Source: Cymbomonas tetramitiformis
Lineage: Eukaryota; Chlorophyta; Pyramimonadophyceae; Pyramimonadales; Pyramimonadaceae
DNA length: 64,000 bases
Reading direction: 5' to 3'
Assembly (NCBI GenBank): GCA_001247695.2
Contig: LGRX02003767.1
Coordinates: forward strand, 1 to 64,000
Program-made: the position numbers and the translations under genes
Part shown: in pieces, positions 4,707-64,000 of the stretch
Layout: each line of letters begins with the position of its first letter
How positions within the stretch are numbered: position 1 is the stretch's first letter
Notes under the pieces: generated by a model
Databases searched by the model: none
The model's input: only the letters and a program-made list of their open reading frames with translations
Told to the model about the DNA's origin: nothing

Positions 4707-4897
4707 TGGCACGAATACTCTCGGAACCGAGCAATCTTAACACTCGCGGATAATCATAAGTTCGTCATTAACATTCACTGGTGTTGGTAACTGTCCAAGC
4801 AATCTCAACACAGCACAAGATCGCAGAGCTACCAAATTTTTGAAATTCTGATATTCTGAGATCAAACACTAAGCTCTTTCATGCAAGCCCAGATTTC
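4707..4897. other. Spacer between viral relic and satellite
   Basis: About 190 bp of unique sequence after the last viral-looking codons. No gene, terminal inverted repeat or target duplication could be recognised, so the exact viral border is unknown. Confidence 0.4.
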
Positions 4898-6316
4898 CAC
4901 GTCATGCGCAGGCGCACCCTCTAGTTTACCCGCAGGCGCAGGCGCACCCTCTAGTTTACCCGCGCCAGCATTGCACTTATGGGATCACACCCAGCCTGTG
5001 TACGCAGCTCGTGGGAGGGGCGGATGATGTGAGGTCATGGGAGGGAGAGTCGTTTGTCGTGTGGCCGTCGTCAGTTGGAGGGGTGTGTAGAGTTGTAGAC
5101 AAGGTCGGGTCCGTGGGCGTTCGGCTCACGCACGTCATGCGCAGGCGCACCCTCTAGTTTACCCGCGCCAGCATTGCACGCATGGGATCACACCCAGCCT
5201 GTGTACGCAGCTCGTGGGAGGGGCGGATGATGTGAGGTCATGGGAGGGAGAGTCGTTTGTCGTGTGGCCGTCGTCAGTTGGAGGGGGTGTAGAGTTGTAG
5301 ACAAGGTCGGGTTGGTGGGCGTTCGGCTCACACACGTCATGCGCAGGCGCACCCTCTAGTTTACCCGCGCCAGCTCTGCACGCATGGGATCACACCCAGC
5401 CTGTGTACGCAGCTCGTGGGAGGGGCGGATGATGTGAGGTCATGGGAGGGAGAGTCGTTTGTCGTGTGGCCGTTCAGTTGGAGGGGGGTGTAGAGTTGTA
5501 GACAAGGTCGGGTTGGTGGGCGTTCGGCTCACACACGTCATGCGCAGGCGCACCCTCTAGTTTACCCGCGCCAGCTCTGCACTTATGGGATCACACCCAG
5601 CCTGTGTACGCAGCTCGTGGGAGGGGCGGATGATGTGAGGTCATGGGAGGGAGAGTCGTTTGTCGTGTGGCCGTCGTCAGTTGGAGGGGGGTGTAGAGTT
5701 GTAGACAAGGTCGGGTTGGTGGGCGTTCGGCTCACGCACGTCATGCGCAGGCGCACCCTCTAGTTTACCCGCGCCAGCTCTGCACTTATGGGATCACACC
5801 CAGCCTGTGTACGCAGCTCGTGGGAGGGGCGGATGATGTGAGGTCATGGGAGGGAGAGTCGTTTGTCGTGTGGCCGTCGTCAGTTGGAGGGGGGTGTAGA
5901 GTTGTAGACAAGGTCGGGTTGGTGGGCGTTCGGCTCACGCACGTCATGCGCAGGCGCACCCTCTAGTTTACCCGCGCCAGCATTGCACTTATGGGATCAC
6001 ACCCAGCCTGTGTACGCAGCTCGTGGGAGGGGCGGATGATGTGAGGTCATGGGAGGGAGAGTCGTTTGTCGTGTGGCCGTCGTCAGTTGGAGGGGGTGTA
6101 GAGTTGTAGACAAGGTCGGTGTAAGGCCGATGGTGCCATGGTATCCCCTCAACAGGGTTGTCGACTTGAGCCAAGCGTGCGCGTGTTTACCACTGGCATG
6201 TCTCTTGGCTCGTCGTGCAATGGTGTATGGTCGGGTCAGACAAGGTCGGGTTGGTGGGCGTCCGGCTCACGCACGTCATGCGCAGGCGCACCCTCTAGTT
6301 TACCCGCGCCAGCTCT
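4898..6316. repeat. Satellite array, unit about 202 bp, six to seven copies
   Basis: Units begin with CACGTCATGCGCAGGCGCAC at about 4898, 5131, 5333, 5535, 5737, 5940 and 6273, giving a period of 202-203 bp. The first unit is longer because a 24-bp piece is duplicated inside it. The 5940 unit is interrupted after about 180 bp by different sequence before the final partial copy. Units are GC-rich and differ by only a few bases. Short ORFs across them are artefacts of the repeat. Confidence 0.9.
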
Positions 6317-6605
6317 GCACGCACGGGATAGGTTTGACCACAGCGTTTTCCACGGTGACTTTACGGTGGAGTCTTGGACGTGGGAGCAGCTGATTGAGAT
6401 GAATCTTAAAATCGTGCCCGCTGTCCGGGTGAAACGAAACTACGAGGTTGGGTGGATGGACGAGGCCGGCGTAGAGCGCACCTGGACCCTGGCAGAGTGC
6501 CGTGGTAATTTCGGCGCAGACCGGATTCCAGCGTTGCGCACTCGTAATTTCAGGACGGCGGCACCCGACGGCAGCACCCGCATGGGAGGACAACAAGCGC
6601 CGTAG
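6300..6605 (+). CDS. Unrecognised GC-rich coding-like segment
   Basis: Directly after the last satellite copy an open frame runs to TAG at 6605. Its roughly 95 residues look protein-like (HGDFTVESWTWEQLIEMNL, then VKRNYEVGWMDEAGVERTWT) and are more acidic and Trp-rich than a chance ORF in the repeat. No start can be chosen because the frame runs back into the satellite. It may be an exon or fragment of the transposase-like gene that follows at 7259. I do not recognise a family. Confidence 0.3.
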   Translation, partial: LPAPALHARDRFDHSVFHGDFTVESWTWEQLIEMNLKIVPAVRVKRNYEVGWMDEAGVERTWTLAECRGNFGADRIPALRTRNFRTAAPDGSTRMGGQQAP

Positions 6606-9180: not shown

Positions 9181-9354
9181 CTAATGAGACCACCCGATTC
9201 ACTTTACCAAGCGCGGCACGCGTGTCGTGCATCGGCTTCCAGCATCGCCTGGCCCAGCTAGATAGCATTGATTGGCTGAACCATGGCTGAACTGCTGAAC
9301 AATAGCCTAATACTTGTATGCGGCGTGGACCTGTGTAGGACTTTCTCATACTGT

Positions 9355-9905
9355 ATTTATGGACCAATGGCTTCCCTAAACATCTAGCCAATTGTAATAC
9401 ATTGTGCCTAGGGTTTCCCCAACATTGGACCAATAAAATAGCAGCATATTAGGTTTCCCTACACATCTAGCCAATAGAAAAGCATAGTGCCTACGGTTTC
9501 CTAAACAATGGACCAATAACATAGCAGCATATTAGGTTTTCCTAAACATCTAGCCAATAGAAAAGCACAGTGCATAGGGTTTCCTAAACATTGGGCCAAT
9601 AACATAGCTGCATATTAGGTTTCCCTACACATCTAGCCAATAGCAAAGCACAGTGCATAGGGTTTCCTAAACATTGGACCAATAACATAGCTGCATATTA
9701 GGTTTTCGTGAACTTCTAGCCAATAGCAAAGCACAATACCTAGGCTTTCCTAAACATCGGGCCAATAAAATAGCAGCATATTAGGTTTTCCTAAACATCG
9801 GGCCAATAAAATAGCAACATATTAGGTTTTCCTAAACATCTAGCCAATAGCAAAGCACGATGCCTAGGGTTTCCTAAACATTGGACCAATAACATAGCTG
9901 CGTAT
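9355..9905. repeat. Tandem array of CCAAT-containing units, about 42/85 bp
   Basis: Two alternating half-units recur about every 40-43 bp. One carries GGACCAATAA or GGGCCAATAA followed by a CATATTAGG box; the other carries TAGCCAATAG followed by AGCAC. I count 14 CCAAT pentamers, all on the plus strand, between about 9362 and 9889. Each is preceded by TTTCCTAAACAT or a variant. The array ends 15-30 bp before TATTTAAATG. Confidence 0.9.
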
Positions 9906-10138
9906 TTAAATGTGTCATCGGTTTATATTGTGTCATGTTCCTAACTTTTGAATTATACCAAGTTTATATATACTCTCGTCCAATCACTAATTACCCAACT
10001 TTAGGAGAACCCAATGTTAACATACAGTACGAGTTTATACTTAAGTATGTGTTCATATGACATGTTTAGGAGATTTTTAGGAGATTTTTAGGAGATTCTT
10101 AGGAATATTTAGGAATACTTAGGAGATTAGTTGTTATA
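9906..10138. other. AT-rich spacer with TTAGGAGATTT short repeats
   Basis: Contains TATA-like stretches (TATTTAAATG at about 9903, TTTATATATAC near 9963) and, at 10064-10128, a short tandem series of TTTAGGAGAT/TTAGGAATA units that ends abruptly where GC-rich retrotransposon coding sequence begins at 10139. No LTR or primer-binding site can be seen here. Confidence 0.6.
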
Positions 10139-11074
10139 GTGTACGGGGAGCTGGACGTGTTCTTCAGCGATCTGGCGGTGTGCTCTCTGACGCAGGCCTA
10201 CCTGGAGAACGCACACGGCGAGGCCATTGCCCTGAAGCAGGCGGTGAACGAGACCGCGGCGGAGTATTTCTCGCGACTGGAGACCCGCATGGCCTCCGTC
10301 AACTTCTTGGCCGGCAGAGTCCCAAATTGCGTGGAGATGACCAACTTGTCGATGCTCTCTACGTACCGCCGGGGGCTGAAATATGCACCCAAGGTGATGC
10401 GGCGCCTGAGAGCCATCCACTTGGATGTCTCCAAACCAGAAGAGTGGGAGAGGAAGGCCGTCGCTGACGACATCCCGGGCACCCACAACGCCTTGTTGAA
10501 GATTCGGGAAGTTGCCGAGGAGGTGGAGAGTGACATTGACACGGAGGCGGCTCAGAGGCGCTCTCAAGACCGTCCTCCCCGTGCTGTTTCCTTCGCTAAC
10601 CCACCACCTCGCACCCCCTTCTACATGCGTACCCCCTCTTCGAGCCGCCCAGCTCTTGCCATGCTGGAGAACGGGCCTGCCACCACCGTCGCCGCGGCAG
10701 TGACTCCTTTGCCACCACCACCTGGCCTCTCCCGCCCTGACGCTCCTAAAGTCCGCCGGTGCTTCGCTTGCGGCTCGCTTGCGCCTGCGGAGCACATCGT
10801 CCGTAACTGTACGGACGAGGCTAAACTCAAGGAGTGGAGGGCCAATGCACCCGCTCGACTGGCGAACTCCCCTGGGTTTGTAGCCGCCGTCGTTTGGGCC
10901 ATTGAGCAGCAGGAGGACATCTCCTCGGTGGATGGCGTCCCAGAGGAGTTCTCCGAGGAGGTCTTGGCTCTTGCTACCTGTGAGGACGAGCAGAGCTACC
11001 AGACCCTGGCGGCCCTTGCGGGCATCGAGCTTGTGGAGGGTGACGGCCTTCCCCCGGTGGAGAGCGACGAATGA
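10139..11074 (+). CDS. gag: Retrotransposon Gag (5' incomplete)
   Basis: Open from the AT/GC boundary at about 10139 to TGA 11074, 311 codons as read from a GTG that is unlikely to be the true start. The N-terminal part is helical and capsid-like (ALKQAVNETAAEYFSRLETR). A Pro-rich linker follows, then a zinc-knuckle variant with Cys 208, Cys 211, His 219 and Cys 224 (CX2CX7HX4C; the usual form is CX2CX4HX4C). The tail is acidic and stops at UGA in the same frame as Pol. Gag packages the element RNA into cytoplasmic particles. The missing N-terminus fits 5' truncation of the element. Confidence 0.8.
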   Translation: MYGELDVFFSDLAVCSLTQAYLENAHGEAIALKQAVNETAAEYFSRLETRMASVNFLAGRVPNCVEMTNLSMLSTYRRGLKYAPKVMRRLRAIHLDVSKPEEWERKAVADDIPGTHNALLKIREVAEEVESDIDTEAAQRRSQDRPPRAVSFANPPPRTPFYMRTPSSSRPALAMLENGPATTVAAAVTPLPPPPGLSRPDAPKVRRCFACGSLAPAEHIVRNCTDEAKLKEWRANAPARLANSPGFVAAVVWAIEQQEDISSVDGVPEEFSEEVLALATCEDEQSYQTLAALAGIELVEGDGLPPVESDE

Positions 11075-11113: not shown

Positions 11114-14100
11114 GTGAGGTCTTGCCCTGATGATCAGACCCTCTCCGCCCTGGAGAAGCGGTCAGAACCAGTGGAACCCCGACGCGCCCGAGGACGCAGA
11201 GACCCTTGGGGCCAACGTCCCCATCCCAAGAGCGTGGCCTTCACCTCTGGGACCCGCTTGCGACGCACCTACCGCTCAGCTGGTGCCCCATCGCCGCCGA
11301 GGGATGACTTGTCCAGCCACCCTCTTGCAGGAAGCACCCCCTTCGATGAGCCGTCACTACCTCTTGATGACGGCCCTGCTTATACACAAGCGAGGATCGA
11401 GGGTCGGAGGGGACGGCGAGTCCCCCAGCACAGACCCCCCATTATGGGCAACAACCGTGGAGAGCCCCGCGATCTTCGCCCCCGACCGCGTGTTGTCCTA
11501 CCGCTGCCCATCTATCAGTCCAACCTCGCAGACCCACGAAAAAGGCTAACTGCGTGGCACTGGAAGAGAGATCTGTACTCCCTCCCCCTCGAGGTCGCCA
11601 TGCAAAAGGTCCGCAGAGCTCTGCGCAAATCCCCTGAGGCTGCCAAGGACCTGGTGGATAAGATGTCGGAGCGCGCCCGCAGCCGCATACACTCTGGGAG
11701 TCGATCGCCAAAGGAGCGCGTGAACCGCGCCAACCAGCAGGCAGAGAGGATACGCATTGCCCGCGAACCTCAAGATCGCAAGGAGGGCCATCAGCGCATA
11801 GCATTGTGGCACCTCCTCTCACACGACGGTCGCCAGCAAGTCCCCGAATCCCCTAACGCCAGCTCCCACGACCTCTACGCGGCTTGGAGAGAGCTGTCGC
11901 CTGCAGAGCAGCAAAAGGCAATCGCCACTTCGAGTCCAGACTCTTCCCCAGGTAGCAGGCTGTGGGAAAAGGAGGGCGCACGAAGAGCAGCAGCGAGGTC
12001 TTCGACATCCCTCTGCACCCTGGACACTGAAGTGGGCACGATACCTGGGACAGCTGGAGATGTGGGTTTACCTGGCGCCTGGTGCAGTCTGCACGCAGTA
12101 CACCAGTACAAGATGAGGAAGCTGGGTCCCAGCCCCTTGGGAGCATCCCCTCCATCATCCTCGCTGGCCGAGCTCACAACAGAGACTACATCTTCGCACC
12201 ATGATAACGCGCCGGCCACTCCGGGAGGAAACCCCGAGAGTTCATCCTACTGCTCAGAGGCGGAGGAGACCTCCGCACCCAGTTCGCTTTGCTTCACCCA
12301 GCAGATGACCACCGTCAGAACGCATGAAGCGGATGAAGCGCCACCCTGTCTCGACAGCCACCCCATCGCTGAAGACCCTGAGGTGATGGAAGAGGAGTCC
12401 TCGGTCAATTCGCTCTGCTTCACCCAGCAGATGGCAGCAGCTGGGACCCCTCAGACGAGAACTGACCACCAGAGCTCCCACCAGCTCGCCCACAACTCCC
12501 CTGCTGGCAGCCCTCAGCATGACGAGGACCCTCTCACCCATGGCAGTCTCACCAATAGTGTCGCTACCCATGTGAGCCCCACGACAAGCGGCACTACCCA
12601 CGTGAGCCCCACAGTAAGCGGCACTACCCATGTTAGCCCTACCACCAGTGGCACTACACATGTGAGCCCTACTACCAGTGACACCACCCATGTGAGCCCT
12701 ACCACCAGCGACACCACTCATGTCAGCCCCACCTCGAGCGAATGCACCTCAGCGGGCACCCTGCTGACGGCGAGTGCAGACAACCTCGTCAGTCATCCGA
12801 CTGAAGATGTTGATTTGCTGGATGAGGAGTTCTACGCCGCGTGTAGGCAAACGTTGGAAGAATGCCGCGAGGCCTCGGACAACCTCCTCCCCAACCTCAA
12901 GTGCAAAAGCATACGCACAGATGGGGGAGTTCAGTGGAAGACCGACATCGAGGGTACCCTTGCAGCGGCACATGACGAGGAAGGACCGCTACTGCTGGTA
13001 TTCTACGCAACCCTCAGAGGGCACACGGTCAAGGTGCTGATTGACTCGGGGGCCTCTGACAACTTCATCTCGGAACAGAGCGCTAAGCGATGTGGCCTCA
13101 CAACACGAGCCGGCTCCGAGATGCGAGTCACCCTGGCGGATGGATCTGTGAAGATCACTGGCGCCACCGCGTACGCCAAGTTTAACACGCACACCACCAC
13201 GGGCACCTATACGGAGAACGCTCTTGCCCTCCGGATCCTACCATTGGGCATACAGGTGGATGTTATCCTTGGCGGAAGGTGGCTGCGCAGTCACTCTCCT
13301 GTCACTCTGGGCTATGAAGGGAATGGCTCCGTCTCCTTCCTCAGGAAGTCCCGCAGTGGTAAGATTGGGGATCGCGTCACCATCACAGGCTGTTCTCCTG
13401 GGAAAGCATCTGGGGACAGGTCTCCGAAGGGCACGGCCTGCGCGGGATTGGTGGATGAGGTGTTCCTAACCCCTGCCCAGCTGAAGAAGTACCTGGTGTA
13501 CGCGGAGACGCAGAAGCTACGCGGCAATGACGACCCGGAGATACAGCCCGCCTGGCTCATGGTGGCCGAGAAGTCCCCCGACGATACTGCTTCTGCCTTT
13601 GCAGCCACGGCTATCGACTCTGAGAACGCCGAACCCGTTGCGGATACTGAAGATGCAGAAGTGAGCCCTGAGTGGACCCTCAAGTTTCAGGACTTCTGGG
13701 GTGAGGAATACAAGAAGGAGATGACGACTGCCCTACCGAACATCGATGGACTCAGACATGACCCCCAAGATGAAGCCAACATTAACCTGGACCCTGAGCT
13801 GAGCAAGAAGGGACCTCCCTGCCAGCGCATCTACAAGAAGTCCGCAGAGGAACTCCGCCAACTTCGAGAACGCGTGGAGACTCTGATGTCCAAGGGCTAC
13901 ATCCGACCCTCTTCCAGCCCTTATGCAGCTCCCTGTTTGATGGTCCCTAAACCCGGGAACCCCAAGGAGCTGCGACTGGTGATCGATTACCGGCTCCTCA
14001 ACCGCCAGACAGTTAAGGACAAGTATCCTCTCCCAGACATCCAGATGATGTTCGACGAGATGCAGGGTGCGAAGTTCTTCTCCTCGTTCGACGCGGTGGA

Positions 14101-17100
14101 TGGCTTCTGGCAAGTACCGATGGCACCAGGGGATGTCGAGAAGACCGCCTTCACCACCCAGATGGGGTCATATGAGTGGTTGGTCATGCCGCAGGGGCTG
14201 CAGAATTCACCGTCTCAGTACCAGCGACGGATGCAGCGGGCCTTGGGCCATCTCCCATTTGTCCGGATCTTCATCGATGATGTGGTCGTCTTCAGCAACA
14301 CCGCTGCAAAGCACTACGAGCACGTCAAGCAACTGCTCCTGACATGCAGGGAGAAGGGCGTCTTCCTCAAGAGGTCCAAGTGCCAACTGTTGAAGAAATC
14401 CTTGCGGTTCCTTGGCCACTGTATCTCCGCAGATGGCTGCAGACCCCAACACGACAAGGTGGCTGCAGTGAGGGACTGGCCCGAGCTGGAAACGGTTACC
14501 CACGTCAGGCAGTTCTTGGGCCTGGCGGGGTATTACCGCAGGTTCATCCACTGCTTCTCCGAGATCGCTCAGCCTCTCACCCGGTTGACCAAGTCGGACG
14601 TGCCCTGGGAGTGGGGTCCCATGCAGCAGTGGGCCTTCGAGGAACTGAAGAAGGCCCTCACCTCAGCGCCAGTACTCGCCTTGCCCAACATCAAGGGTGC
14701 CGCAGACGGCACGGCACCTTTCGTGGTGCAGACGGATGCTAGCGGCATCGCTCTTGGGGGAGTACTGATGCAAGACAATGGAGATGGTCTTGGACTGCGC
14801 GTGATAGCATACGAGAGCCGCCAGTTCTCAGCCGCTGAGCAGAATTACCACACCGGCGAGCGTGAGCTAGGTGCTCTACACCATTGCACCACCGTTACCT
14901 GGCGGCATTACCTCATCTTCACCAACTTCCGCATCCAGGGTGATCACCGCCCCCTTGAATGGCTGATGGAACCCGGCAGGGAGCTTAGCCGCAGACAGGC
15001 ACGCTGGTACATGGATCTGGTGGAGGTGGGAGTCCCGAGAATGGAGTACATCAAAGGAGCGCTGCTGCTGGTACCGGACGCCCTGTCCAGAAGACCCGAC
15101 TTCAAGGACAAGGACGTGCGTGAGGGGTTGAAGGAGGCAGGGGTGATCGACCCCACCTCAGATCTACCGAAAGACCCCCTGGCAACGCTGGAGTCTGAAT
15201 ACTTCTCCAGCTCACCACCCGCAGCTCATCCCCACTGGGCCCAGACAGTTGACTGTTGGCTCTCAGCAGTGGAGACCCTCTCCGTGGCGGAACAGGCCAT
15301 GGACATGGGGGAGACCATCGCTCTCGTTAACCCGAAGCTCTATAAGGGAATGAAGGAGGATCACCTCGACTTCGACATGCCTGACTGGCCTGCAGCTGAT
15401 GGTGCGAAGCCGGTAAAAGCTCCACACAAACCCCCTGATAGAGCTCCACCCCAGATAAGGATAACGAGGAGTATGTCACGCGCTGGGAAGGCCTCTACGA
15501 CCCCAGCGCCTCCGCAGTTGGCGTCACCGAAGACGCGAACACCTACGTCACGAGCTGACGCATCAGAGGCGCCCACTGAGAAGGTGCCGACGAGCTCACC
15601 AACCCCGCAGCAGGCGCCCCAACAGTTAACTTCATCCCCGGTCCTTCACCCACAGAAACGGCAGGCTCCCCCAGAGGACTCACAGAATTGGCGTGTCCGA
15701 GCAGAGTACTCCTCGAAGTACGCCGAGAAATTTGGACCCTTCGATGTGGACGCCTGTTGTGACTTTGGCGGCCGCAACAGACAGGCGGATAGATTCTGGA
15801 CAGACTGCCTTTCAGAGAAATGGAGGGGCCTTCGGGTTTGGTGTAACCCTCCATACAACTCCAAGTGCATTACTGTGGAGGCGATCTTGAACAAGTATAT
15901 CGCAGAATGGAAGGCAGACCCAGAGAACACCTCGGCAGTATTCGTTCTACCAGATCACCAGTCCAAGCTCCCCGTGTGGCGCAAACTTTTCAGAAAGGCC
16001 AATATGCAGATTGTTGAGGTCATCCCTACTCACGATGACAAGGGCGAGCCCAACCAGTTCTTCGAGAACCCAGATGGGAGAGCCTTCGACCTCCGCTGGC
16101 CTGTTCTGATAGTACACGCCCCTCCCGCCAAACCACAACCAGCACGCGTGAGGCATCCGCGAACAACCCCCGCTGTGATAAGGACAGGCGAGGCGGCAGA
16201 CTTCAGAGACGCAGCCTCCCAGCAGTCGGACTCAAAGTTCCTGCGCGCGTTGAAAGCGGAGTACACCCGAGAGGGGACACTTCGCTCACTAAGAGAGAAA
16301 GTGAAGGCGGCGCCACACCAATGCCTACAGGACTTCAGGCTGGTGGGTGAAGTGGTTTGGAGAACCGCAGCAGGGAGATATCAGTTGGTGCTGGGGGAGG
16401 ACTCTCCACTTCGAGAAGTAGTGATTCGCCATGCTCATGAGTCATTGTCCTCGGGCCACACTGGGCGAGACAAGACTCTGGAGAGGGTGCTGCGACGCTT
16501 CTATTGGCGTGGTGCCGCGGAAGATGTGGGCACTTGGGTTGCATCCTGCGCAGTGTGCCAATCAGTGAGGCCGCGGGGAACTTACCCGGATGGGTTGCTA
16601 AACCCTCACAGCATCCCGAACAGACCATGGCAGGATGTCGCGGTGGACTTCGTCACCGGCCTGCCGGTATCAGAGAGGGGCAATGATGCTTTCGTGGCCT
16701 TCACCTGCAAGCTGACGAAGATGGTCCACGTTGTGCCGATGAACTTCGGCGACAGCTCCGCAGCTGTGGTGGCCAGAATCTACTTTGACTCGGTGTGGCG
16801 CTTACATGGCGCGCCTATGAAGATTGTCTCTGATCGTGACCCGCGGTTTCAAGATGCTTTCTGGCAGGAACTCATGAGACTGATGGGTGTGAAAGTGGCT
16901 CGTACCACGCCGTACAACCCTCGGTCTGACGGCCAGGCGGAACACAGCAACAGGGTTATTGAGGACATGCTCAGGTCCTTTGTAGACGCCAATGTGGAGG
17001 ACTGGGATCTGTTCACCACTAACGTGGAGTTCGCGATCAATGACTCCAGGAGTGAATCTACTGGCTTCACGCCGTTTGAACTGGTGTTCGGGTTCTCGCC

Positions 17101-18685
17101 GCTGTCGCAGTTGGACCTTTTCCTGGAGGCCGCACAGTCCACCGCTGGACGACGAACTGGGGGAGTAGGCACCGCACACGAAGTGGCTGTGAAATTTTCG
17201 TCGCAGCTGCGGGACGCCAGACAGCGGTTAGAGCTGGCTCAACAGCGACAGCGCGAACAGTTTGATCGCAGACACGGGCAGCGGGAGTATGCTGTTGGAG
17301 ATCTGGTCTGGATAGAGGCGAAACACCTTACGGAGAAGGTGATGGATCGCTCCATCTGTAGGAAACTGACCAAGCGCTGGCATGGACCAGTTCCTGTGAC
17401 CGAACGCTTCTTCAGCGATGTACAGATGACCATGCCAGAGGCCGACAGAGGAGCCCCAGTAGCCTACCGCCTACGCCTCCCTCCTCACTGGCGGATTCAC
17501 GACGTCTTCGCTCAACATCGCCTCAAACCGTACACCAGCGGTCAAGATGCTTTTGCCGCACGCGATCACCTAGCAGTACCTGAAGAAGTGGTAGTGGACG
17601 GTCAGAAGGAAGCACACGTTGAGCGCATCCTTGCACGTCGAGTGCGGTCTGTTCGAGGAAAGGAGGTGGAAGAGTGGAAGGTTCGCTGGACTGGCTACTC
17701 CAAAGCTCACGACCAATGGAGGACGCGTGACAAACTTGAACGCGGAAGTCCACTTCAACAACTTCGTGAATTCGAGCAAGCGAGACTGCACATGGAAGCG
17801 CAAGTCCGCGACGAAGCCACTCGGCGACGCGAGCAGCGTGGTCGCCACTCCGCTCAAGCCGGAATGACACTGGCCCACCTCATCACTAATCCCTGCGATG
17901 AACTGGACCAGCTCGAACAGATGGAAGATGACATCCCCCTGCCGTGGGAACGCCAAGAGCGCGTGGAAGATGGGTCGCTGGCACTGGTGACAGAGCTGCT
18001 GGCAATACAGACAAAAACAACCCGCACGCCCAGGATTCTCGTACTTTTCAGCGGTACTGGCTCAGTAGAGAGGGAATTCCTGAATTGCTTCCCCTCCGCC
18101 TCAGTAGTGACCCTCGACTCCGGTCATATCTGGCAACCCACTCATGTGTGTGACATCCTACAATGGGACTACAGACAATACCCGCCTGGATTCTTCGATG
18201 TTGTTTGGGCAAGTCCCCCCTGCAGGCAGTACAGTCAAGCGCGCACCACTGGTGGACCCCCTGACCTTCCCCAGGCTGACAAAATCGTACGACGAGCATT
18301 GCAGATCATTGACTACCTAGAGCCAAAACATTGGTTCATGGAAAACCCCAGAGGTCGCTTCCCTAACGCGCTACGGCTTCGCCCTATGATGCGCCAGCTT
18401 CCCCCACCGCTGGTGTGTACCTATTGCATGTACGGTACGCAGTACATGAAACCCACCTGCATATGGACGAACTCAGCACCACCCTCGCCCCTGCTACGCT
18501 GTACTACTTCAACACCGTGTGCGTGCAGATGGGCAACCGGTGCTCATCCAGAGACTGCTCAGCTTGGACCTCACCCGCAGCAGACTGGAGCAGGTCGATC
18601 CGCGAGTGTATATCCCGTGCCAGCACTCCTGCTACGACAACTTTTCCGACATTTACGCCTCCGCGACACTGAAGACCCGCTTTAG
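11114..18685 (+). CDS. pol: Gag-Pol type polyprotein: PR-RT-RH-N6MTase-IN-CHR-C5MTase
   Basis: A 2523-residue frame, open back to the Gag UGA; the GTG at 11114 serves only to number residues. Residues 1-600 are a Ser/Thr/Pro-rich linker with a THVSPTTSGT repeat. Aspartic protease: VLIDSGASDNF, Asp 644. Reverse transcriptase: IFIDDVVVFS, Asp 1055-1056, with Ile in place of the usual Leu/Met and Phe in place of Tyr. RNase H: QTDASGIALGG, Asp 1208. NPPY methyltransferase-like domain: about 1523-1670, NPPY at 1578-1581. Integrase: HX..H and CAVC zinc motif, then Asp 1845, Asp 1907, Glu 1943 in D-61-D-35-E spacing. Chromodomain: about 2160-2230 (EEWKVRWTGYS). C5-methyltransferase-like domain: about 2307-2500. 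It copies element RNA and inserts the DNA into chromatin; the chromodomain would steer targeting. All catalytic residues look intact. Confidence 0.9.
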   Translation: MRSCPDDQTLSALEKRSEPVEPRRARGRRDPWGQRPHPKSVAFTSGTRLRRTYRSAGAPSPPRDDLSSHPLAGSTPFDEPSLPLDDGPAYTQARIEGRRGRRVPQHRPPIMGNNRGEPRDLRPRPRVVLPLPIYQSNLADPRKRLTAWHWKRDLYSLPLEVAMQKVRRALRKSPEAAKDLVDKMSERARSRIHSGSRSPKERVNRANQQAERIRIAREPQDRKEGHQRIALWHLLSHDGRQQVPESPNASSHDLYAAWRELSPAEQQKAIATSSPDSSPGSRLWEKEGARRAAARSSTSLCTLDTEVGTIPGTAGDVGLPGAWCSLHAVHQYKMRKLGPSPLGASPPSSSLAELTTETTSSHHDNAPATPGGNPESSSYCSEAEETSAPSSLCFTQQMTTVRTHEADEAPPCLDSHPIAEDPEVMEEESSVNSLCFTQQMAAAGTPQTRTDHQSSHQLAHNSPAGSPQHDEDPLTHGSLTNSVATHVSPTTSGTTHVSPTVSGTTHVSPTTSGTTHVSPTTSDTTHVSPTTSDTTHVSPTSSECTSAGTLLTASADNLVSHPTEDVDLLDEEFYAACRQTLEECREASDNLLPNLKCKSIRTDGGVQWKTDIEGTLAAAHDEEGPLLLVFYATLRGHTVKVLIDSGASDNFISEQSAKRCGLTTRAGSEMRVTLADGSVKITGATAYAKFNTHTTTGTYTENALALRILPLGIQVDVILGGRWLRSHSPVTLGYEGNGSVSFLRKSRSGKIGDRVTITGCSPGKASGDRSPKGTACAGLVDEVFLTPAQLKKYLVYAETQKLRGNDDPEIQPAWLMVAEKSPDDTASAFAATAIDSENAEPVADTEDAEVSPEWTLKFQDFWGEEYKKEMTTALPNIDGLRHDPQDEANINLDPELSKKGPPCQRIYKKSAEELRQLRERVETLMSKGYIRPSSSPYAAPCLMVPKPGNPKELRLVIDYRLLNRQTVKDKYPLPDIQMMFDEMQGAKFFSSFDAVDGFWQVPMAPGDVEKTAFTTQMGSYEWLVMPQGLQNSPSQYQRRMQRALGHLPFVRIFIDDVVVFSNTAAKHYEHVKQLLLTCREKGVFLKRSKCQLLKKSLRFLGHCISADGCRPQHDKVAAVRDWPELETVTHVRQFLGLAGYYRRFIHCFSEIAQPLTRLTKSDVPWEWGPMQQWAFEELKKALTSAPVLALPNIKGAADGTAPFVVQTDASGIALGGVLMQDNGDGLGLRVIAYESRQFSAAEQNYHTGERELGALHHCTTVTWRHYLIFTNFRIQGDHRPLEWLMEPGRELSRRQARWYMDLVEVGVPRMEYIKGALLLVPDALSRRPDFKDKDVREGLKEAGVIDPTSDLPKDPLATLESEYFSSSPPAAHPHWAQTVDCWLSAVETLSVAEQAMDMGETIALVNPKLYKGMKEDHLDFDMPDWPAADGAKPVKAPHKPPDRAPPQIRITRSMSRAGKASTTPAPPQLASPKTRTPTSRADASEAPTEKVPTSSPTPQQAPQQLTSSPVLHPQKRQAPPEDSQNWRVRAEYSSKYAEKFGPFDVDACCDFGGRNRQADRFWTDCLSEKWRGLRVWCNPPYNSKCITVEAILNKYIAEWKADPENTSAVFVLPDHQSKLPVWRKLFRKANMQIVEVIPTHDDKGEPNQFFENPDGRAFDLRWPVLIVHAPPAKPQPARVRHPRTTPAVIRTGEAADFRDAASQQSDSKFLRALKAEYTREGTLRSLREKVKAAPHQCLQDFRLVGEVVWRTAAGRYQLVLGEDSPLREVVIRHAHESLSSGHTGRDKTLERVLRRFYWRGAAEDVGTWVASCAVCQSVRPRGTYPDGLLNPHSIPNRPWQDVAVDFVTGLPVSERGNDAFVAFTCKLTKMVHVVPMNFGDSSAAVVARIYFDSVWRLHGAPMKIVSDRDPRFQDAFWQELMRLMGVKVARTTPYNPRSDGQAEHSNRVIEDMLRSFVDANVEDWDLFTTNVEFAINDSRSESTGFTPFELVFGFSPLSQLDLFLEAAQSTAGRRTGGVGTAHEVAVKFSSQLRDARQRLELAQQRQREQFDRRHGQREYAVGDLVWIEAKHLTEKVMDRSICRKLTKRWHGPVPVTERFFSDVQMTMPEADRGAPVAYRLRLPPHWRIHDVFAQHRLKPYTSGQDAFAARDHLAVPEEVVVDGQKEAHVERILARRVRSVRGKEVEEWKVRWTGYSKAHDQWRTRDKLERGSPLQQLREFEQARLHMEAQVRDEATRRREQRGRHSAQAGMTLAHLITNPCDELDQLEQMEDDIPLPWERQERVEDGSLALVTELLAIQTKTTRTPRILVLFSGTGSVEREFLNCFPSASVVTLDSGHIWQPTHVCDILQWDYRQYPPGFFDVVWASPPCRQYSQARTTGGPPDLPQADKIVRRALQIIDYLEPKHWFMENPRGRFPNALRLRPMMRQLPPPLVCTYCMYGTQYMKPTCIWTNSAPPSPLLRCTTSTPCACRWATGAHPETAQLGPHPQQTGAGRSASVYPVPALLLRQLFRHLRLRDTEDPL
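12566..12745 (+). repeat. 30-bp coding repeat (six copies) in the Pol linker
   Basis: Six in-frame copies of a 10-residue unit, THVSPTTSGT with small variations (TVSGT, TTSDT, TSSEC), lie between the N-terminal linker and the protease. Ser/Thr-rich repeats of this kind are flexible spacers; no function is assigned. Confidence 0.9.
15680..16130 (+). other. Dam-like (NPPY) DNA adenine-N6 methyltransferase domain inside Pol
   Basis: Residues about 1523-1673 of Pol. The domain starts with NWRVRAEYSSKYAEKFGPFD, followed by VDACCDF, then LRVWCNPPYNSK with NPPY at 1578-1581, then a beta strand AVFVLPDH. In amino-methyltransferases the [DNS]PP[YF] motif IV binds the target amino group. The FD(V/L)DA...N...VW.NPPY layout matches the phage Dam-like family. 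A tail with NPDGRAFDLRWPVLIVH fits the end of that fold. It lies between RNase H and the integrase zinc finger, where chromoviruses normally have only a short tether. Whether it is cut out or works inside the polyprotein is unknown. Confidence 0.7.
18026..18685 (+). other. C5-cytosine-methyltransferase-like domain at the Pol C-terminus
   Basis: Residues about 2305-2523 of Pol, directly after the chromodomain and an acidic linker. Motif I: ILVLFSGTGSVERE. Motif IV: WASPPCRQYSQA, candidate catalytic Cys 2370. Motif VI: MENP, Glu 2410. A CTYC pair and CIWTN follow, and the end reads YPVPALLLRQLF. Block by block it matches the viral protein at 3349-3978 (DILQWDY, FDV.WASP.C.QYS.A, AD.IV.R.L.I.DY, C.YC..G..Y.K.T.IWTN, TAQ, P..LL..L). 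The match runs to the C-terminus in one frame, so the domain looks complete. Confidence 0.8.
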
Positions 18686-18873: not shown

Positions 18874-19558
18874 TGTGCCCGGAGGCACAGCGTGAGCCGA
18901 TATGCCTATGCGTCCGTATGTGTGTCATCGGGGGTAATCTGGGATTGGCACGATGACAGTGAAATTGGGCTTGAAATCACGATGAGAATGAATACCAGAT
19001 GTCCGGGGTATGACAGTATGACACTATGACAGTATGACAGTATGACACTATAGTAGTATGACAGTACTGTGGGGGGTGTCATCGTGGAACTCAGTCAGAC
19101 CCTCGAAGAATGGTCAGATTCGCATCGGGGTTGAAAAGACAATGAAATCGAATATCAGATATTAAGGTTATGACAGTATGACAGTATGACGCTATGACAG
19201 TATGACAGTATGACAGTACAGTAGTATGACAGTACTGTGGGGCAGTCATCGTGTCAGCCTGTCGGCATAACATCTGAATCGAGAATGACGAATCGGAATT
19301 AGAAATGAGATCGGATCGGGAACTGAACGTTGAGCCGAAGTGTGACATCGGCTCTCGAGTGGTTGACCCTGCAACCTGAGTGACGAGTGAATAAGTAGAG
19401 CACTTGAGAAGTGTTTAGCCTTCAGAACTCGGAACCGAATTATCGTTTGTACCTCAATCTGGCCCTGATCCAGTATATTATAAAAATCCGAATTGTGTAC
19501 CTTTGCACGTTCAATCAAAAACATATCTCCGAGCATCTGTCGTCGTGCCCCTGGCACA
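18874..19558 (+). repeat. 3' long terminal repeat of the chromovirus, about 685 bp
   Basis: The left end is set by the polypurine tract and TGTGCCCGG, the right end by the matching CCTGGCACA at 19550-19558, giving the usual TG...CA inverted ends. The first part holds two to three diverged 170-bp units with TATGACAG microrepeats. A TATA-like TATATTATAAAAA lies near 19473-19485, before a short R/U5-like end. With no second LTR in the window the borders are inferred from ends only, and no target duplication can be tested. Confidence 0.6.
18940..19255 (+). repeat. Duplicated TATGACAG-rich block inside the LTR
   Basis: Two copies of a block of about 170 bp. Each contains an (A/G)AAATC-like lead, a run of TATGACAG/TATGACAC octamers, TAGTATGACAGTACTGTGGGG and TCATCGTG. 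They span about 18940-19088 and 19125-19252. Repeated octamers in an LTR U3 region may be transcription factor sites; that is inference. Confidence 0.7.
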
Positions 19559-21713
19559 CAAGTTTCGGTAAAATTACCCAATTGAAGTGTGTGACATAGA
19601 AACATCTTGTCTCTTTCGCGCTGAGTTTTGCTGTGAAAGCAGTGCAACCCTCAGTTGCCAATTTGAGTTCCCTTTAGCGAGGGTTTCCAAGCGACGAACA
19701 AAATCTTACCTCGCGCCCTTATTTCATTCGCTTGATATATTTCCGCAAGGAAGCTGCGTTTAAGAACGCTGTGAACGAAATCATTTCCTGCTGCTGCTGC
19801 ATCTTTGACCGCAATTTTTGAAATTATCTCTGCATAGAATTCGATTTTATTTCTGCCTCCGTCGGCGCATTCTGCATTCAAATTCACCGATGACCACAAC
19901 GAACAGACCGGGTGATGATGATGCATGTTTTTCTTCACTCGACTGTCAATGTCACTGAGCGAATGTTTTCCGCATGAACGGCGCATTGCGCCCGATGGGC
20001 ATCATTTCGATCTCCAATCACGGGACGGCGCTTTGGTTCTTCGAGCCAAGATGCTGCCCGATGCGACTTTCGTCATTTGTCGAATAGTGGACGACGATAG
20101 ACGAATTTCGGCAGATCCCAAATTGCATCGGTGGTCGGAAATTATGTAATATTTATATTTCCACGATGATCCGCATGACTTATCCATTTGCAGCTCATCG
20201 TATAACTGTAGTATGATAACGGCCGAATAGTGTATATGCTGATTTATAGGATACTGGACGGACAACAGAAGAACTACAGCCGATTTCAAATTGCATCAGG
20301 CCACGGAATTTATACACTAGTTATATATTCGCGATGATTCGCAAGACTTACCGATTTGCTGCCTGCTGTACTATTGTCGTAGGATAACGGCCGAATCTTG
20401 GATACGACGATTTATAGCACGAGCTCGTTCACCGTATTTCCTTCATGTGCAACGCGAGTCACAAAAATATGAATTATATATTACACACGTTTCAATACAG
20501 TCGAATCCGAAAAGTGAAAATATATAAGAACGCCACGATACTCACCGATCGGTTCCGGAAAGCGCGTCCAGTGATAATTTAGTATACTCGACTGATATCG
20601 TAAACCTCGTGGATAACGTCACTCCTGAATTCTGATACGAAAAACACGTTTCATGTCATTTATACAGTCTGACGTCACTCGTGTATAATGATTCAAAAAT
20701 GACTTGTCGCGAGGATTATGTTCCTAAAATGCACCCGAATCGGGTTGTGTCCCATATACTGGAGTGGCACGATTCGAATAAATATGTTAAAAAACTGCAC
20801 ACTCAAAAAACCCGGATGTAGTGGGTAAATTCTATCTAAAACAAAGTCATCTTGCGGCTGTAACTGGTGCTGATCAATCGTTTCACGGGGAACGACCAGT
20901 TTTTTTTTTGTGGAAGACTAAGTTACACAATTGTGAACCTCGTGTTTATATTCAATCGCCTGGTAGGGCAGTATATCACCGTCACTGGCTAAATACATGC
21001 TCGTTGCCCGGGTGTCAATAGATCCCCATCCCACACCGCATCCCTAACATTAGCGCGGGCACCTCTTGCCTGCATCTAAACTTCAAATAAGAACTACCTT
21101 AGTAGCCACGGCGGACAGTTTATACATCCGGTCAAACAGAACACAACCAGGCCCGTATAGTACTAGGACAGTGCGCGGCATCAGGTGTAGGGGGGCTTGA
21201 ACCTAGCAACTCACAAGCGGTGTCCGTGATTTTCCTTGATGACTGAAACAGTTTCTTGGTTGGTTTGTCCAACACTCTCCTCTGTGGACATCATTTTTGG
21301 GCATATTTTACAGTGTCAGCCGCGAACCCTAGTATCATTCAACTGTTTCGTCACAGATTTCAGTCATTGTCCAACTGTGGTATCACCCTCTAACTGTATC
21401 AACCTCTCACAGTATCATAGACATGATGCCATGGTGGCATTCCTATGCACTCTCTTGCTTCGGGTCATAATCCATGCTTCAGTAGCATCTGACAGCTATC
21501 CTACCACATACTCGCCGGGTTGGCGGGGGAATATCTTGTAATTTACCAAACCCGCTGGCAAAAATCTTCTCGTGTCTTGCTATGCTACTACATTTGCAGC
21601 TATTTGGTTAAAATTTCTGTCAAAGCTCAAGCCCGGTTCTCCATTGACCCTAAGTTACATTGCTTTTCAATGGCTTGGATAGCACTCAGGGTCATGCAGG
21701 CATGCCTCTGCTG
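19559..21713. other. Intergenic region without recognised genes
   Basis: About 2.1 kb between the retrotransposon LTR and the end of the nucleotidase gene. ORFs are short and show no family resemblance. A diverged tandem duplication lies at about 20108-20420. Nothing else could be supported. Confidence 0.5.
20108..20420. repeat. Diverged tandem duplication of about 145 bp
   Basis: Two copies share, in order, CAAATTGCATC, a central CGATGAT.CGCA.GACTTA box, GGATAACGGCCGAAT or GATAACGGCCGAAT, and GATTTATAG. They start near 20118 and 20285. The copies are clearly diverged, so this is an old duplication. Confidence 0.7.
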
Positions 21714-24700
21714 CTAGCGTATCTCTCGAATGAGATCGTTCACAAACTCCATGCTTCCGTCGTTTACAATAATCACGTCGAATACATCTGTGTATTTGGG
21801 TAATAATTTATCCACCGAGTCGTTCAAGAAGCCAACTTTAAGCACCTCGTTGTGAGATATTCCTTCCGCCATGGTGATATCGCCAAGACCATCACCTATG
21901 TGTCGCCAAACAAATACCCCCAAGCTCAAACGATGTCAGTACCCTGATCCTCAAGCTGAAGTTTGCTGATTCCCGAGCAAAATGTTTCAGAGTTAATCCC
22001 CTTTCATAAGCATGACATGTCGTAACCAGGAAGGGATATGGCACTTGATGATATAACGTCCCTTACCGAGCAAGATAACGTTGCAGCGAGCTTCCACGGA
22101 CTTGTGATAGTCCGTGCCCTTGGTATGCCTACTATCTTTGTTAAACATGTGAATCAGAGGCTCCGAAATACCTATCCACTCCCGCACCGGCAGTTTTTAG
22201 GTAGCCTGAAAGCAAAAGGTGGGTCAGGTGACGAGGCTTCCAAGAGATGCAGAGGCCGCCGAGCTCACCAGCGTCACCCAAAACGATGCAGAAAACGTTC
22301 CACAACAATAACCGATCGACCAGCGTGTCAGGGCCCGAAGCCTTGCACAGCACAGCAACCAGCCTTCTATCTTACACGTGGTCGATTCAATGGGTGACAA
22401 CTTGCTAGAAGTACACAAATGATGTGGCAGGTGGTACGTTCTTTTGGATGACAGTCAATAACCTTGTGCACATGGCAGTTCGTCCCGCACGGGCACGGGC
22501 ATGGGCACGGGTGAAGGCAAGGAATAAACAAAAGAAATGGTTTGCAAAGCCTCAGGCATCTGGTAACATTCAGACCAAAGGAATACTTGTGAGACGGATG
22601 CAGGACAAATAGCCCCACAGGATAAATAGCAGGGGGTAACTATCACGAAATACACTGAATGGCATGAGATCGGCCAACAAAAGCCACCCCACCATCATCC
22701 CAGTGGATGTGAAAAGCAAATCAAGAGCAGGGCGGGGCCGTGACAAGATACCACAAACGCATACATATTCCCAACCCAAATGTCTAAAAACTATCACGAA
22801 ATACAAACACAGGTGCATGCTTACTCTTAATGCAAGATTTCAGCCGAGTAGCTCTTGCTCTAGGACAAATATCTGGCACAACAAATGGCACTCCTCTCAA
22901 TAGGAGCTGAGCCTCACCTTCAACACAGCCAGTATCCGAAAATGATAACCAATTGGATATGATGTGCGTGGTGGATGATACGTTGCCAAATTTCTGCGCG
23001 AAGACCTGGTGAGGCTCCACACCAGACATACCCAAGCGTCTTTAAAAATAAGTATGACAATACATTGAAGACTCCGCATCCTTCCAGTCCCAATGTGCCC
23101 CAGTGCCCCAGTTTTCCCAAACTGCCTCGTCTTCAGTCATACGCTTTGTTGCTCACTGCGCTGCCTCGTCTTCAGTCACAAGCTTTGTTGCTCACTGCGC
23201 TGCCTCGTCTTCATTCACACGCTTTGTTGCTCACTGCGCTGCCTCGTCTTCATTCACACGCTTTGTTGCTCACTGCGCTGCCTCGTCTTCAGTCACACGC
23301 TTTGTTGCTCACTGCGCTGCCTCGTCTTCAGTCACACGCTTTGTTGCTCACTGCGCTGCCTCGTCTCCAGTCACACGCTTTGTTGCTCACTGCGCTGCCT
23401 TGCAAGGCTTCGAGGCAAAATATCACTTTCCCCTCAGGTCAGCCGCCGCCTTGCCATGGAAGACTATATGGGTCGTAACTCATTGCTACATCGCTTTTGG
23501 TTCTATGCAACCAAGTTATCACGCCACATATTGCTACCTTTGGAGCTTTGAAGGCCAGAGTATGCCAAGGGCATGGTGCATGGTGCAAGTGCCAGGAATA
23601 CAAAATTATCGCGTTTGAGCACAAGCGCTGGTATGAGCTCACATTTGGCGCAAACTCGTAAGTACACCTGTGCACATCTCCAGCATTCAGCAGCACAACT
23701 GCTTAGTCCAGCATATCATAGCGCTGGACATCTAGAATGGGCAACCCCTCTCTCCCCTCACCGGACATGTGCACGCTGGGCGAACCCTCTCTCCCCTCAC
23801 TGGACATGTCACACTGGGCGAACCCTCTCTCCCCTCACCGGACATGTGCACTGGGCGAACCCTCTCTCCCCTCACTGGACATGTGCACGCAGGGCGAACC
23901 CTCTCTCCCCTCACCGGACACAGCTCCACCGCGCAACCCCTGTTCTGCTCAGGGGTATGGCATATCCTGGGCAACCGCTTTCTCGCCTCAGCGGAATTAT
24001 TTCGACAGGGCAACCTTTCTCTCTCGATTCTCCAGATAAGGCTTTCCGTCAGCACATGCCATAGTAGATGAGAGATCACCTCGTGAATGACGTTCGCAAT
24101 ACCGGCGGAAAAAACCAGCAAAGGCACCTGCAGGATACGCCGTCGCCCAGCCATCCCGCCGCCGGTTTAAAGATCACAAGCCAAGCCTTGTAGGGCGGAA
24201 CGGGCACCATTCCTAAATCATGAGAGCCGCCGGGGTTCCACTGTCGATGCATGTGGGGTGGTGTACAAGGCGGGGTAGAGATATGCAGTGAAATATCTGA
24301 AAATGGACACAGAAAAGACAGAAGGGTAAGGGAGAAGAGGAAGAATAAGTCAACTGAGTTTGCAGACTGACAGAAAAGAGAGAGTCCGAGAGCGCGTTGG
24401 AGAAAGTTTCCAGGCGCGTAGGCAGGCAAATGGGTACTAAGAGAGCAGGAGAGCCGAGAGGGGTTTCTAACATGCAGCCACCTGATGACTTTGTAGGGTT
24501 TGCATAAGCTGTGGCCAACCTTCTCGCAACTCCAAGTTTGCTGTGCGCACTGTCATGGCCCTCAATACAAGATTCTCAGTACGAGATAGTTGCAAACTGC
24601 GAAGACAGCATGTATTTGAAGGTATCAAGGCTACCTCTCACCCTGAAAATACAAAACGGATTCCTAGGCAGCGACAACTTCTAACACCGAAGCACCAGCT

Positions 24701-41428: not shown

Positions 41429-44400
41429 GTCGAGCATGCTAAGCAATTGAAAGTGGAGTACATCGATATCAGCTCAGGGAAAAAGAAGACGTGTGCGTGC
41501 GCACAATTTGAGATCGAATGTGGAGTGCGAGAACGTGGTAGCAGAGGTAGCAAACAACAATCTTGGCGACATACCTTCTTGGTCGGTTCCGAGGAGTTGG
41601 GAATTTGGATGCATCGACACAATATTGTTATGCAAGCTGCCACTGATCTCCAACGTGAGGCGGCACATGATGGTACTCGGCCGGATGGTGCCAAATCTAT
41701 AGATGCTCAGAATATTAGCGATGCCAGCTCAGATGATGTCTCAGATCATGGGGATCATGTGCAGCCACCCATACCGGTTAATCTCTGGACAAGTGAATAT
41801 GACCGGTTGTGGAATGCCGTTGAGGCCGAGGAGGAGGAAATGGCCGACTACGCGGAAGCCGAGCTAGATGCACTCGCTGATCAGGCAGAAGCTAACGTAG
41901 AGGCGTCTGCAAATGATATGGTCGTTGAGGGGTTGACAGCATCGAGCATAAGCGACCTCGAGAAATTAAAGATCGACCTTGTCAGCACCTTGCCTGAGCC
42001 CGAGGACCCCTCAAACATCATAAGGACACCGCAAATGGATGATGAATTAGAGGAAACTATCCAAGCCGATTTGCTATCATCAACATCGCCTTCCGAACCA
42101 TCATCATCACCATCCTCAGCACCCTCTAATGTGCGCGTCGGATGGGATTTCACAGATATTAAGGCGCATCTAGATATAGATTGGAGTGACTACTCCTTCC
42201 TTGGGGATCATCGAGCCGTGGGTGCTTTGCCAAACTCAATCAAGCTCTTAGACGATATTCCTGACTACAAGCCTCTCGAAGAATCTTTTCGGGTTATCGT
42301 GATGGGCATCGACAATTTGAGTGCATCAACATACATTTCGAAAGAGGATTGTTTCAAGTGTATTTCGCAAGTCAAATCCTTCATCGACATGCACCCCACA
42401 TTGCCCCAGCAAACCGTCGAAGCAGCGAAAGCGAACATAGTGCAGAAAAAAAACCAATATATTCGAAAGGCTGGGTCCATCGATAAGTTGACTCAAGGCC
42501 ACAAGGCTAAGCTTCAAGCTTTAGAGCGTATCCTTATGGATGCACAGTCGATGCAGCTTCAGACGGATACATTTATGCAAGTGTGGCAAAAATGTGCCTA
42601 TTCAACCGCCTTGATCCTCGATGGTGACAAGGCCAACCCAACTCAGCACACCAGGTACACAATTATCTTGCCACAAGGAGTAATAAAACGGTGTTGAACT
42701 ATATGTATGTGAATATACTTATATTGAGCGTATGGTTATTCTAATACCTTTTTACCTATTTTACATCACATGCCTTATCATGATTCACATGTCGAGGACA
42801 CATTCTAGCCATGGTTGAAAATTTGTCTTTGTCGTTTGTGGTATTGCTTTATCGTTTGTTCCCGTGAGTGGCGTGGCAGGGTGTATATAAAAATGTTGTT
42901 TGTACCGGAATATCCAAGTACACTAGATATCAGAAAGTCCCGTACTCGTGTGGATAAACTGTATAAGATAAATAAACCCTAAGCTAGATATACCCGGAAC
43001 GGTCTCGGACGGTCTCGGTGTCTAGCCTACCTGTGACACAGCGTGTGTCACAGTACGAACCTACAGATCAGTCAGTAGTCCAGTGTTGGTCCTAGAGATC
43101 TGTCATAGGGGCCTGACCGGGACTCCCAGTCAGGGCTGCCTATACAGATTTCAGCACACCACCCCAGCACTGTGGGTGGTGACTGTCTAGGAGAGTCAGA
43201 AAATGTAAGGCTGTTAGTGTTAGGGCAGGAGCTAGGTGACAAGTCCAACTGCTAATCTAACTGTGCAATTCTGATACACAAATTAGAACCCTCTAGCTAG
43301 CACAAGAGCAGAAACTCACAGGCAATTAAGGTCCTGCTAAACTACTGAAAGGCTCTGTGCCAGCAAGTCAAACTGAAGATTTCAAAGGTGTCAAAGCAAA
43401 ACATAAACCAGATTGAGGAAGTCTTTGAAGTCACAGGAGTTCTGCACACCACCATGTTGGTGTGCCTCCAGAGTGAGCAAGAAGTCAATCGACAGTATCA
43501 AAGTAGTCAGCGGTGGCCTCACGGAAGTCCATCCCATAGTAGGAAGTAAAGTAACCAGCACCGTAGTAGTGCCCCGCATCAAGAGGACCGCTCTCATGTA
43601 AGGCCATGCCGTAGTAGAATGCCATGTCAATACCCAAATCCGCTTGAGCCAAATCCTGAAATGCTAAGAAGCTCAAAGTGTCAGGAGGCTCGGGCGGCTG
43701 AAGCTGTGGCACATCGTCAGGCAATAGGAGACCCTGAGCCGTCATCACCGGATCAAGAAAATCATTCGTAGAGAAAAATGACGGAGCCTCCCAATCGAGA
43801 TCACCACCAGGCGAAGGCACCTCCGTAGCCGGTGCACATGCCGACACAGCAGAAGCCGTGGAAGCTGAGACAGATACACCTGCAAACGAAATGCACAAGA
43901 GCGAGAGCACCGCGAGAGCGCCGATCGCCGGCGTGCCAAAGCCGAAGGGCGGCACACCGCATCCGATAGCACCGGACGGAGCCCGCGGCTTCACCGCGAA
44001 AGTACCGTCGGCGTAATCCTCGTAGTCGTCCGTGTCATAGCCTGTCAGGTCAGACGGGTGGACGGCGGCGTGATTCACCGTCTGCACGAAGCCTCCGAAC
44101 TCACCGCGTGTCGCCTCCGTGGTGGTCACCCGCGCCGATTGAACTGGCGCGGGCCGTACATCCTTCGCCTGCGAAACAGGCATAGCAGGGGCCGGCACGG
44201 CGGACGCCGATGCCGCCGCACCACCTGCCGGAACCTGCCCCTCCGGTGTGATCCCCGCCGCAGCGGCAGGGCCACACACCAGAGCCGACGCATGCTCCTC
44301 AACCGCACCCCCAGGAACAAAGGATGCGTGAGTGTAATGTAACTTCTCTTGGGCGGCCTGAACCTCAGTGGTGAGGGCATCAAGCCGCCGCAAGATGTCC

Positions 44401-63960: not shown

Positions 63961-64000
63961 GGTTGAAGAAGCAGCGGCAACGCACCACGAGGAGCGACGT

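Follow-up and report, generated by a model that had tools for sequence, protein, structure and literature searches.

The DNA analysed here, referred to below as the window, is the whole 64,000-nucleotide (nt) stretch formed by positions 1 to 64,000 of contig LGRX02003767.1 of the alga Cymbomonas tetramitiformis, and our subject is a retrotransposon in it whose Pol polyprotein is encoded by a stop-free reading frame of 2523 codons on the plus strand (11114..18685). A Pfam scan recovered along this frame, in order, protease, reverse transcriptase (RT), RNase H (RH), Dam, integrase (IN), an SH3-type domain, a chromodomain (Chr) and DNA_methylase. The main parts, all on the plus strand, are a retropepsin-type protease with the motif DSGA (13007..13276; PF13650, 2.4e-10), RT (13943..14419, codons 944-1102; RVT_1 PF00078, 2.7e-31), RH (14612..15022, codons 1167-1303; PF17917 and PF17919), a Dam-like N6-adenine methyltransferase (MTase) domain (hereafter Dam; 15668..16141), the zinc-binding and core regions of integrase (16403..16921), a chromodomain lacking the first cage aromatic (17615..17776; Pfam scan and alignment) and a C5-cytosine MTase domain (hereafter C5; 18020..18670). 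Integrase is represented by Integrase_H2C2 (PF17921) at codons 1764-1821 and by rve (PF00665) at codons 1837-1936, the latter at 23.5 bits, under its cut-off of 32.6, and Chromo (PF00385) matches codons 2168-2221 at 28.6 bits against a cut-off of 25.1. The succession of protease, RT, RH and integrase, with the chromodomain C-terminal of integrase, is that of the chromoviruses; the tyrosine recombinase PF00589, which would point to a DIRS element, is not among the Pfam matches of Pol, where Integrase_H2C2 and rve stand instead.

Upstream of Pol lies a gag-type open frame (10139..11074, plus strand, 311 codons, without a Pfam match) that ends in the TGA at 11072-11074 dividing gag from Pol, the two being in a common frame. 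This gag frame is 5′-truncated, starting abruptly at 10139 after AT-rich tandem repeats of 83 nt, and no 5′ long terminal repeat (LTR) was seen upstream of that point in the window copy. A 3′ LTR with approximate borders (18874..19604, plus strand) is directly preceded by a purine tract, and its sequence recurs elsewhere in the genome from 18874 onward (97.7% identity over 132 nt at locus L036 and 97.2% over 612 nt at L043). We conclude that the element is very likely a 5′-truncated copy of a Ty3/gypsy chromovirus that was recently amplified and has two MTase modules of separate origins in its Pol, a Dam-like N6-adenine MTase between RH and integrase and, behind the chromodomain, a C5-cytosine MTase. 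A protein named as from Cymbomonas tetramitiformis (P0001) shares 97% identity with the window Pol.

The preliminary description, made from the sequence alone, had placed the two MTase-type domains at these points of one unbroken 2523-codon frame, and both the frame and the Pfam order bear it out. In the scan of the whole protein, Dam (PF05869) matches codons 1519-1590 (E 6.6e-07) at 29.6 bits, just above its cut-off of 28.1, and DNA_methylase (PF00145) matches codons 2342-2413 (E 0.0011) at 18.9 bits, below its cut-off of 22; when each domain is scanned by itself, both exceed their cut-offs, with 35.1 bits for Dam and 23.1 for C5. Moreover, all members of the two domain alignments match the same Pfam family at E up to 0.1 (14/14 for Dam, 13/13 for C5). 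The motif NPPY (codons 1578-1581, positions 15845-15856) and the motif SPPC (codons 2367-2370, with the Cys codon at 18221-18223) are both intact in the window copy. C5 shows, in addition to its predicted fold and its profile match as a lone domain, what we take to be motif I and the PPC and ENP motifs of C5 MTases (ENP at codons 2410-2412), and the predicted structures of both domains are MTase folds. The odd C-terminus of C5 had raised the suspicion of a frameshifted or cut domain, which is ruled out by the same C-terminal motif in the relatives P0009, P0012 and P0016.

The pair of domains is repeated throughout the genome of this alga (G000; 851.7 Mb in 25,745 contigs were searched). Among the best 150 of 7624 candidates for the window C5 core and the best 150 of 7565 for the window Dam, identities are 99-100% and 98-100%, respectively, so that each query has at least 150 scored matches; a number of these, the closest copies, fall within frames of more than 2000 codons. 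On 43 of the 47 contigs common to both sets the two domains are spaced by 2346 ± 60 nt, and on 29 by exactly 2346. This single spacing, together with relatives from other sources, rules out a chance insertion or an assembly artefact as the origin of the pair. Neither outcome that the preliminary description had named as refuting it, a domain lacking an HMM or fold match or a one-off insertion, has therefore come about. Within the window family, the first five of 17 planned copies (every ninth row of the C5 matches) were compared, and Dam is retained in four; the fifth, L212, has an internal deletion in which protease to Dam is missing and gag-like sequence, extending further upstream than the gag of the window, is fused to the integrase region.

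A sister family, found with the Dam profile (best 150 of 7257 candidates), is about 65-75% identical to the window in DNA over the pieces that matched. Twenty of its loci were chosen from the 150 Dam matches, 19 for frames of at least 2380 codons plus L031 (688 codons), a choice biased to intact copies; 19 of the 20 have the same domain order including C5, 16 of them in one unbroken frame. The copy on contig C17946 spans about 16 kb and bears at both ends a 778-nt repeat that is 97.3% identical; the flanks first taken for three sister copies yielded no LTR pair, and longer flanks disclosed one for C17946 and none for C860. In the sister family, unlike the single-frame gag-TGA-Pol of the window, gag and pol occupy different frames. 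Copies of this family, for example C17946 (L026, L041, L042 and L047), contain minisatellite arrays in the gag-protease part, ahead of Dam and near the 3′ end.

Relatives were sought among polyprotein-sized proteins, of which 21 were found by Dam and 36 by C5, giving 44 rows with the window included. Profiles based on the window detect C5 in 16 of the 21 Dam-found polyproteins and Dam in 30 of the 36 C5-found ones, and in P0042, beyond this count, Dam is additionally detected by Pfam; the polyproteins without the partner domain include some short gene models. RT-RH-Dam-IN-Chr-C5 is the order in 26 of the 44 rows and C5 follows the chromodomain in 27, the window being counted in both. Trees of RT-RH, Dam and C5 for the 24 of 44 elements with near-full RT, RH, Dam and C5 have 11 of 21 splits in common. 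Furthermore, among 23 elements RT distances correlate with those of Dam (0.79), C5 (0.82) and IN (0.86), values that none of 2000 permutations equalled. On the most economical reading, both domains predate the divergence of these elements and then descended jointly with some shuffling. Rearranged modules occur as well: C5 is N-terminal in P0035, P0041 and P0043 and lies between RH and integrase in P0042, and Dam is N-terminal in P0042 and ahead of RT in P0021.

Both MTases are under purifying selection, Dam as firmly as RT and C5 less so. For the sister family, we computed ratios of nonsynonymous to synonymous changes per site from copies ranked by Dam score, mostly long-frame picks, with partial matches dropped; of the 20 copies, L031 included, 19 could be used for RT, 19 for RH, 20 for Dam, 18 for IN, 19 for Chr and 16 for C5. 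When this was repeated without the diverged locus L031, which formed part of the sets for Dam and IN, 16-19 copies remained per region and the ratios (pairwise; from distinct changes) were 0.12; 0.20 for RT, 0.03; 0.08 for RH, 0.06; 0.10 for Dam (0.11; 0.13 with L031), 0.09; 0.20 for IN (0.07; 0.11 with L031), 0.10; 0.17 for Chr and 0.26; 0.39 for C5. In the window family, where copies were picked via C5 and not Dam, Dam has 11 synonymous and five nonsynonymous changes (0.12) with the Dam-deleted L212 left out, the ratio with L212 included being 1.61, and IN has 19 synonymous changes and one nonsynonymous (0.02). The corresponding count for C5 (15 synonymous, 0 nonsynonymous) was not used, since C5 identity had served to rank these copies.

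The two modules appear to differ in ancestry. Among the loci L001-L014 of the same genome, eight (L001-L006, L010 and L014) appear to be DIRS-type loci with Dam, supported by Pfam through RT in L001 and L003 and through weak, sub-cut-off tyrosine-recombinase matches in L001, L004 and L005, the remainder being placed by likeness of Dam and flanking frames. Their Dam domains match the chromovirus Dam profile at 7e-31 to 2e-38, and the best row from IMG/VR, in a separate search, at 2e-17. In a tree of 19 of the 37 chromovirus Dam rows, the eight DIRS-type rows and 22 of 80 IMG/VR rows (taken as database entries, with phage identity not confirmed gene by gene), the IMG/VR rows form one side of a 100/100 branch and the DIRS-type rows fall with 18 of the 19 chromovirus rows, with weak branches between them (83/84, 86/92); P0033, a long branch, strays. 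Dam was likely exchanged between DIRS elements and chromoviruses.

For C5, the tree comprised 21 of 34 chromovirus rows, 16 hand-chosen single-domain proteins (from the best 120 of 6183 matches), three eukaryote-labelled proteins and 20 of 80 IMG/VR loci, and held no DNMT3 or KnitGypsy sequence. In this tree the chromovirus rows are intermixed with the single-domain proteins (about 210 residues) and the three eukaryote-labelled ones, of which one is labelled Prorocentrum and one Tetstr1 (which we read as Tetraselmis), and together these separate from the IMG/VR set (100/100). Under this topology C5 may have been captured or lost several times (fewest changes, six; starred branches force four). 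No single-domain C5 genes like P0108 were found on IMG/VR contigs, where 13 pattern matches included no relative, and the C5 relatives in annotated phage records reach only 27.8-36.3% identity, with 67-95% of the query covered.

Each of the two associations has precedents. PMC5890265 describes a charophyte Gypsy Pol that contains DNMT3, as well as DIRS elements and long interspersed nuclear elements (LINEs) of Symbiodinium with C5 MTases; PMC3783388 describes Dam in DIRS, and PMC12477816 describes algal DNA transposons that carry an MTase-ParB gene. PMC12344493 and PMC9998398, as far as accessible, repeat the DNMT3 cases or are not relevant. The closest parallel is KnitGypsy-Dnmt3 of Klebsormidium nitens, likewise an LTR Gypsy Pol with an in-frame C5 MTase under purifying selection; it differs in that the available text reports a Dnmt3 type and a DIRS-like repeat order and mentions no adenine domain (PMC5890265), whereas single-domain C5 MTases and a phage family are the nearest C5 kin seen for the Cymbomonas element. 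DIRS elements, which consist of RT-RH-Dam and a tyrosine recombinase (PMC3783388), share a Dam-like domain after RH, and the Dam of DIRS-type loci in the same genome groups, over weak branches, with that of the chromovirus; in contrast to them, the Cymbomonas element has an H2C2/rve-type integrase, a chromodomain and a protease and no tyrosine recombinase. SymbioDIRS-Dnmt3 and SymbioLINE-Dnmt resemble it as high-copy intronless retrotransposons with C5 MTases and differ, in the same partial source, in being of DIRS or LINE class with one MTase each (PMC5890265). A Chlamyvir-related chromovirus from the same alga is also Ty3/Gypsy with a chromodomain pol, and the main text on it contains 0 occurrences of 'methyl' and 0 of 'dam' (PMC10675990). 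Finally, phage C5 and Dam MTases (phrog_757 and phrog_111) are sequence kin of both modules, but these are phage protein families, not retroelement parts. Thus C5 in Gypsy and Dam in DIRS are already known singly, and what appears to be new is the presence of both in one Pol, for which we found no description in a literature search that lay outside most subscription papers, Repbase and bioRxiv.

Transposons are usually targets of DNA methylation. The MTase domains of this element may themselves be enzymatically active with DNA as substrate, and the timing and benefit of their action can be sketched as follows. As a working proposal, which we hold to be quite possible if short of probable, the Pol MTases would mark the element's own reverse-transcribed DNA with N6-methyladenine (m6A) and 5-methylcytosine (m5C). 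Both domains would travel in the particle together with RT and integrase and methylate this DNA, m6A being laid down near synthesis and m5C added upon docking of the chromodomain-tipped integrase complex; new copies might thereby be marked as modified DNA and so escape nucleases or begin in a chosen chromatin state. With respect to DIRS-borne DNMT3, the accessible text of PMC5890265 proposes cDNA methylation, self-recognition or chromatin setting, and suggests that Dam in DIRS could act similarly. More tentative still is the broadest form of our proposal, a wide lineage of eukaryotic LTR retrotransposons with a two-base modification machine in Pol, its adenine writer shared with DIRS and its cytosine writer of phage-like ancestry, both co-inherited with RT and integrase, such that one polyprotein would perform reverse transcription, chromatin-guided integration and m6A/m5C marking of the new copy.

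Several observations weigh against a joint marking function. Five of the 21 Dam-found polyproteins have no C5, and in one of the 20 sister loci (L024) RT to chromodomain are present and Dam is kept, with C5 not seen. Constraint on C5 is weaker than on RT, IN or Dam. The Dam profile has no significant match among PDB sequences, and C5, at 234 aa against 327 in HhaI, leaves in our reading little space for a target-recognition domain. Furthermore, NPP[YF] is kept in 30 of 37 Dam rows and lost in P0015, P0016, P0028, P0029, P0033, P0036 and P0038, of which P0036 and P0038 represent clusters of 90 and 19 sequences, so that adenine methylation looks dispensable in some families. SPPC, in contrast, is kept in 34 of 34 C5 rows. 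Catalysis by the cytosine domain thus looks essential, whereas that by the adenine domain looks optional in part of the lineage. Among 18 sister-family copies (L024 and L031 dropped) there is no sign of decay of CpG m5C, since C/T (G/A) differences occur at 37 of 405 CpG columns (9.1%) versus 104 of 1182 other C columns (8.8%); m5C in other sequence contexts, or on short-lived cDNA, could escape such a test. The CpG observed/expected ratio amounts to 0.75 for the Pol frame and 0.89 for the window.

Among other explanations, one unlikely but live alternative is that the domains methylate RNA, placing m6A-type and m5C-type marks on the genomic RNA of the element or on host RNA and so tuning packaging, translation or decay. 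By VIA-align, the solved structures nearest to the Dam model belong to N6-adenine enzymes that act on RNA (PCIF1/CAPAM, KsgA), with DNA enzymes such as TaqI and M.BseCI ranking lower, and a DNMT2-type tRNA enzyme is the top PDB sequence match for the C5 profile. The sequence families, however, are Dam and DNA_methylase, and the C5 fold is closest to the DNA enzymes DNMT3 and then HhaI, yet DNMT3 is absent from its five PDB sequence matches (E 0.01) and fold likeness by itself shows no substrate.

We give an equally low probability to action after integration, in which the chromodomain would anchor Pol on chromatin and C5 (and Dam) would, as the writer, mark the insertion site or sibling copies, the resulting chromatin state taming or hiding the element. 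The position of C5 behind the chromodomain in the 27 rows noted above accords with such a role, as does the PHD finger that separates Dam from integrase in two relatives, P0025 (1137-1181) and P0034 (1269-1313). On the other hand, no CpG mutation excess is seen in the copies, and the chromodomain of the window itself is atypical. The accessible part of PMC3350952 defines group I chromodomains, the H3K9me-binding type, by three cage aromatics, Y24, W45 and Y48; in the alignment the window has A at the Y24 position, where its relatives have Y or F, and retains W45 and Y48, which sets it outside group I. Thus, of the histone-reading chromodomain that the preliminary description had assumed, the chromodomain stands and histone reading appears doubtful.

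Rather less probable is that the adenine domain is largely structural, its fold retained for nucleic-acid binding or polyprotein architecture, so that only C5 need be enzymatic. This would fit both the uneven loss of the two motifs and the greater divergence of Dam than of RT (mean between-element distance 1.40 versus 0.79), but it is at odds with the strong purifying selection on Dam in the window and sister families and with the motif's retention in most rows. It is most improbable that the modules serve as a mobile modification system shielding element or host DNA from restriction-bearing algal giant viruses, an idea in keeping with a general proposal for transposon methylases (PMC6338049, in the part available) and with the many endogenous giant-virus and polinton-like elements reported in the accessible text on the Cymbomonas genome (PMC10675990), but one that would be pure analogy, no restriction partner or virus link having been looked for or found.

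An element with both types of base-modification enzyme, kept over deep divergence, makes the question of why retrotransposons retain MTases directly testable. The unequal fate of the active sites, 7 of 37 rows having lost the adenine motif and 0 of 34 the cytosine motif, amounts to a natural experiment on which activity matters. Since a single sequenced alga, for which PMC10675990 states that Oxford Nanopore reads were generated, has at least 150 scored copies that are nearly identical, the question could be answered soon from modified-base reads.

Elsewhere in the window, tandem arrays with units of about 203, 83 and 39 nt occupy 4894-6329, 9286-9940 and 23083-23439, respectively. An open frame of 862 codons without a Pfam match at E 0.01 lies on the minus strand at 43485-46073, and a frame for an EF-hand protein (PF13499, 8.5e-17), also on the minus strand, runs from 62935 to 63999 and extends past the window edge.
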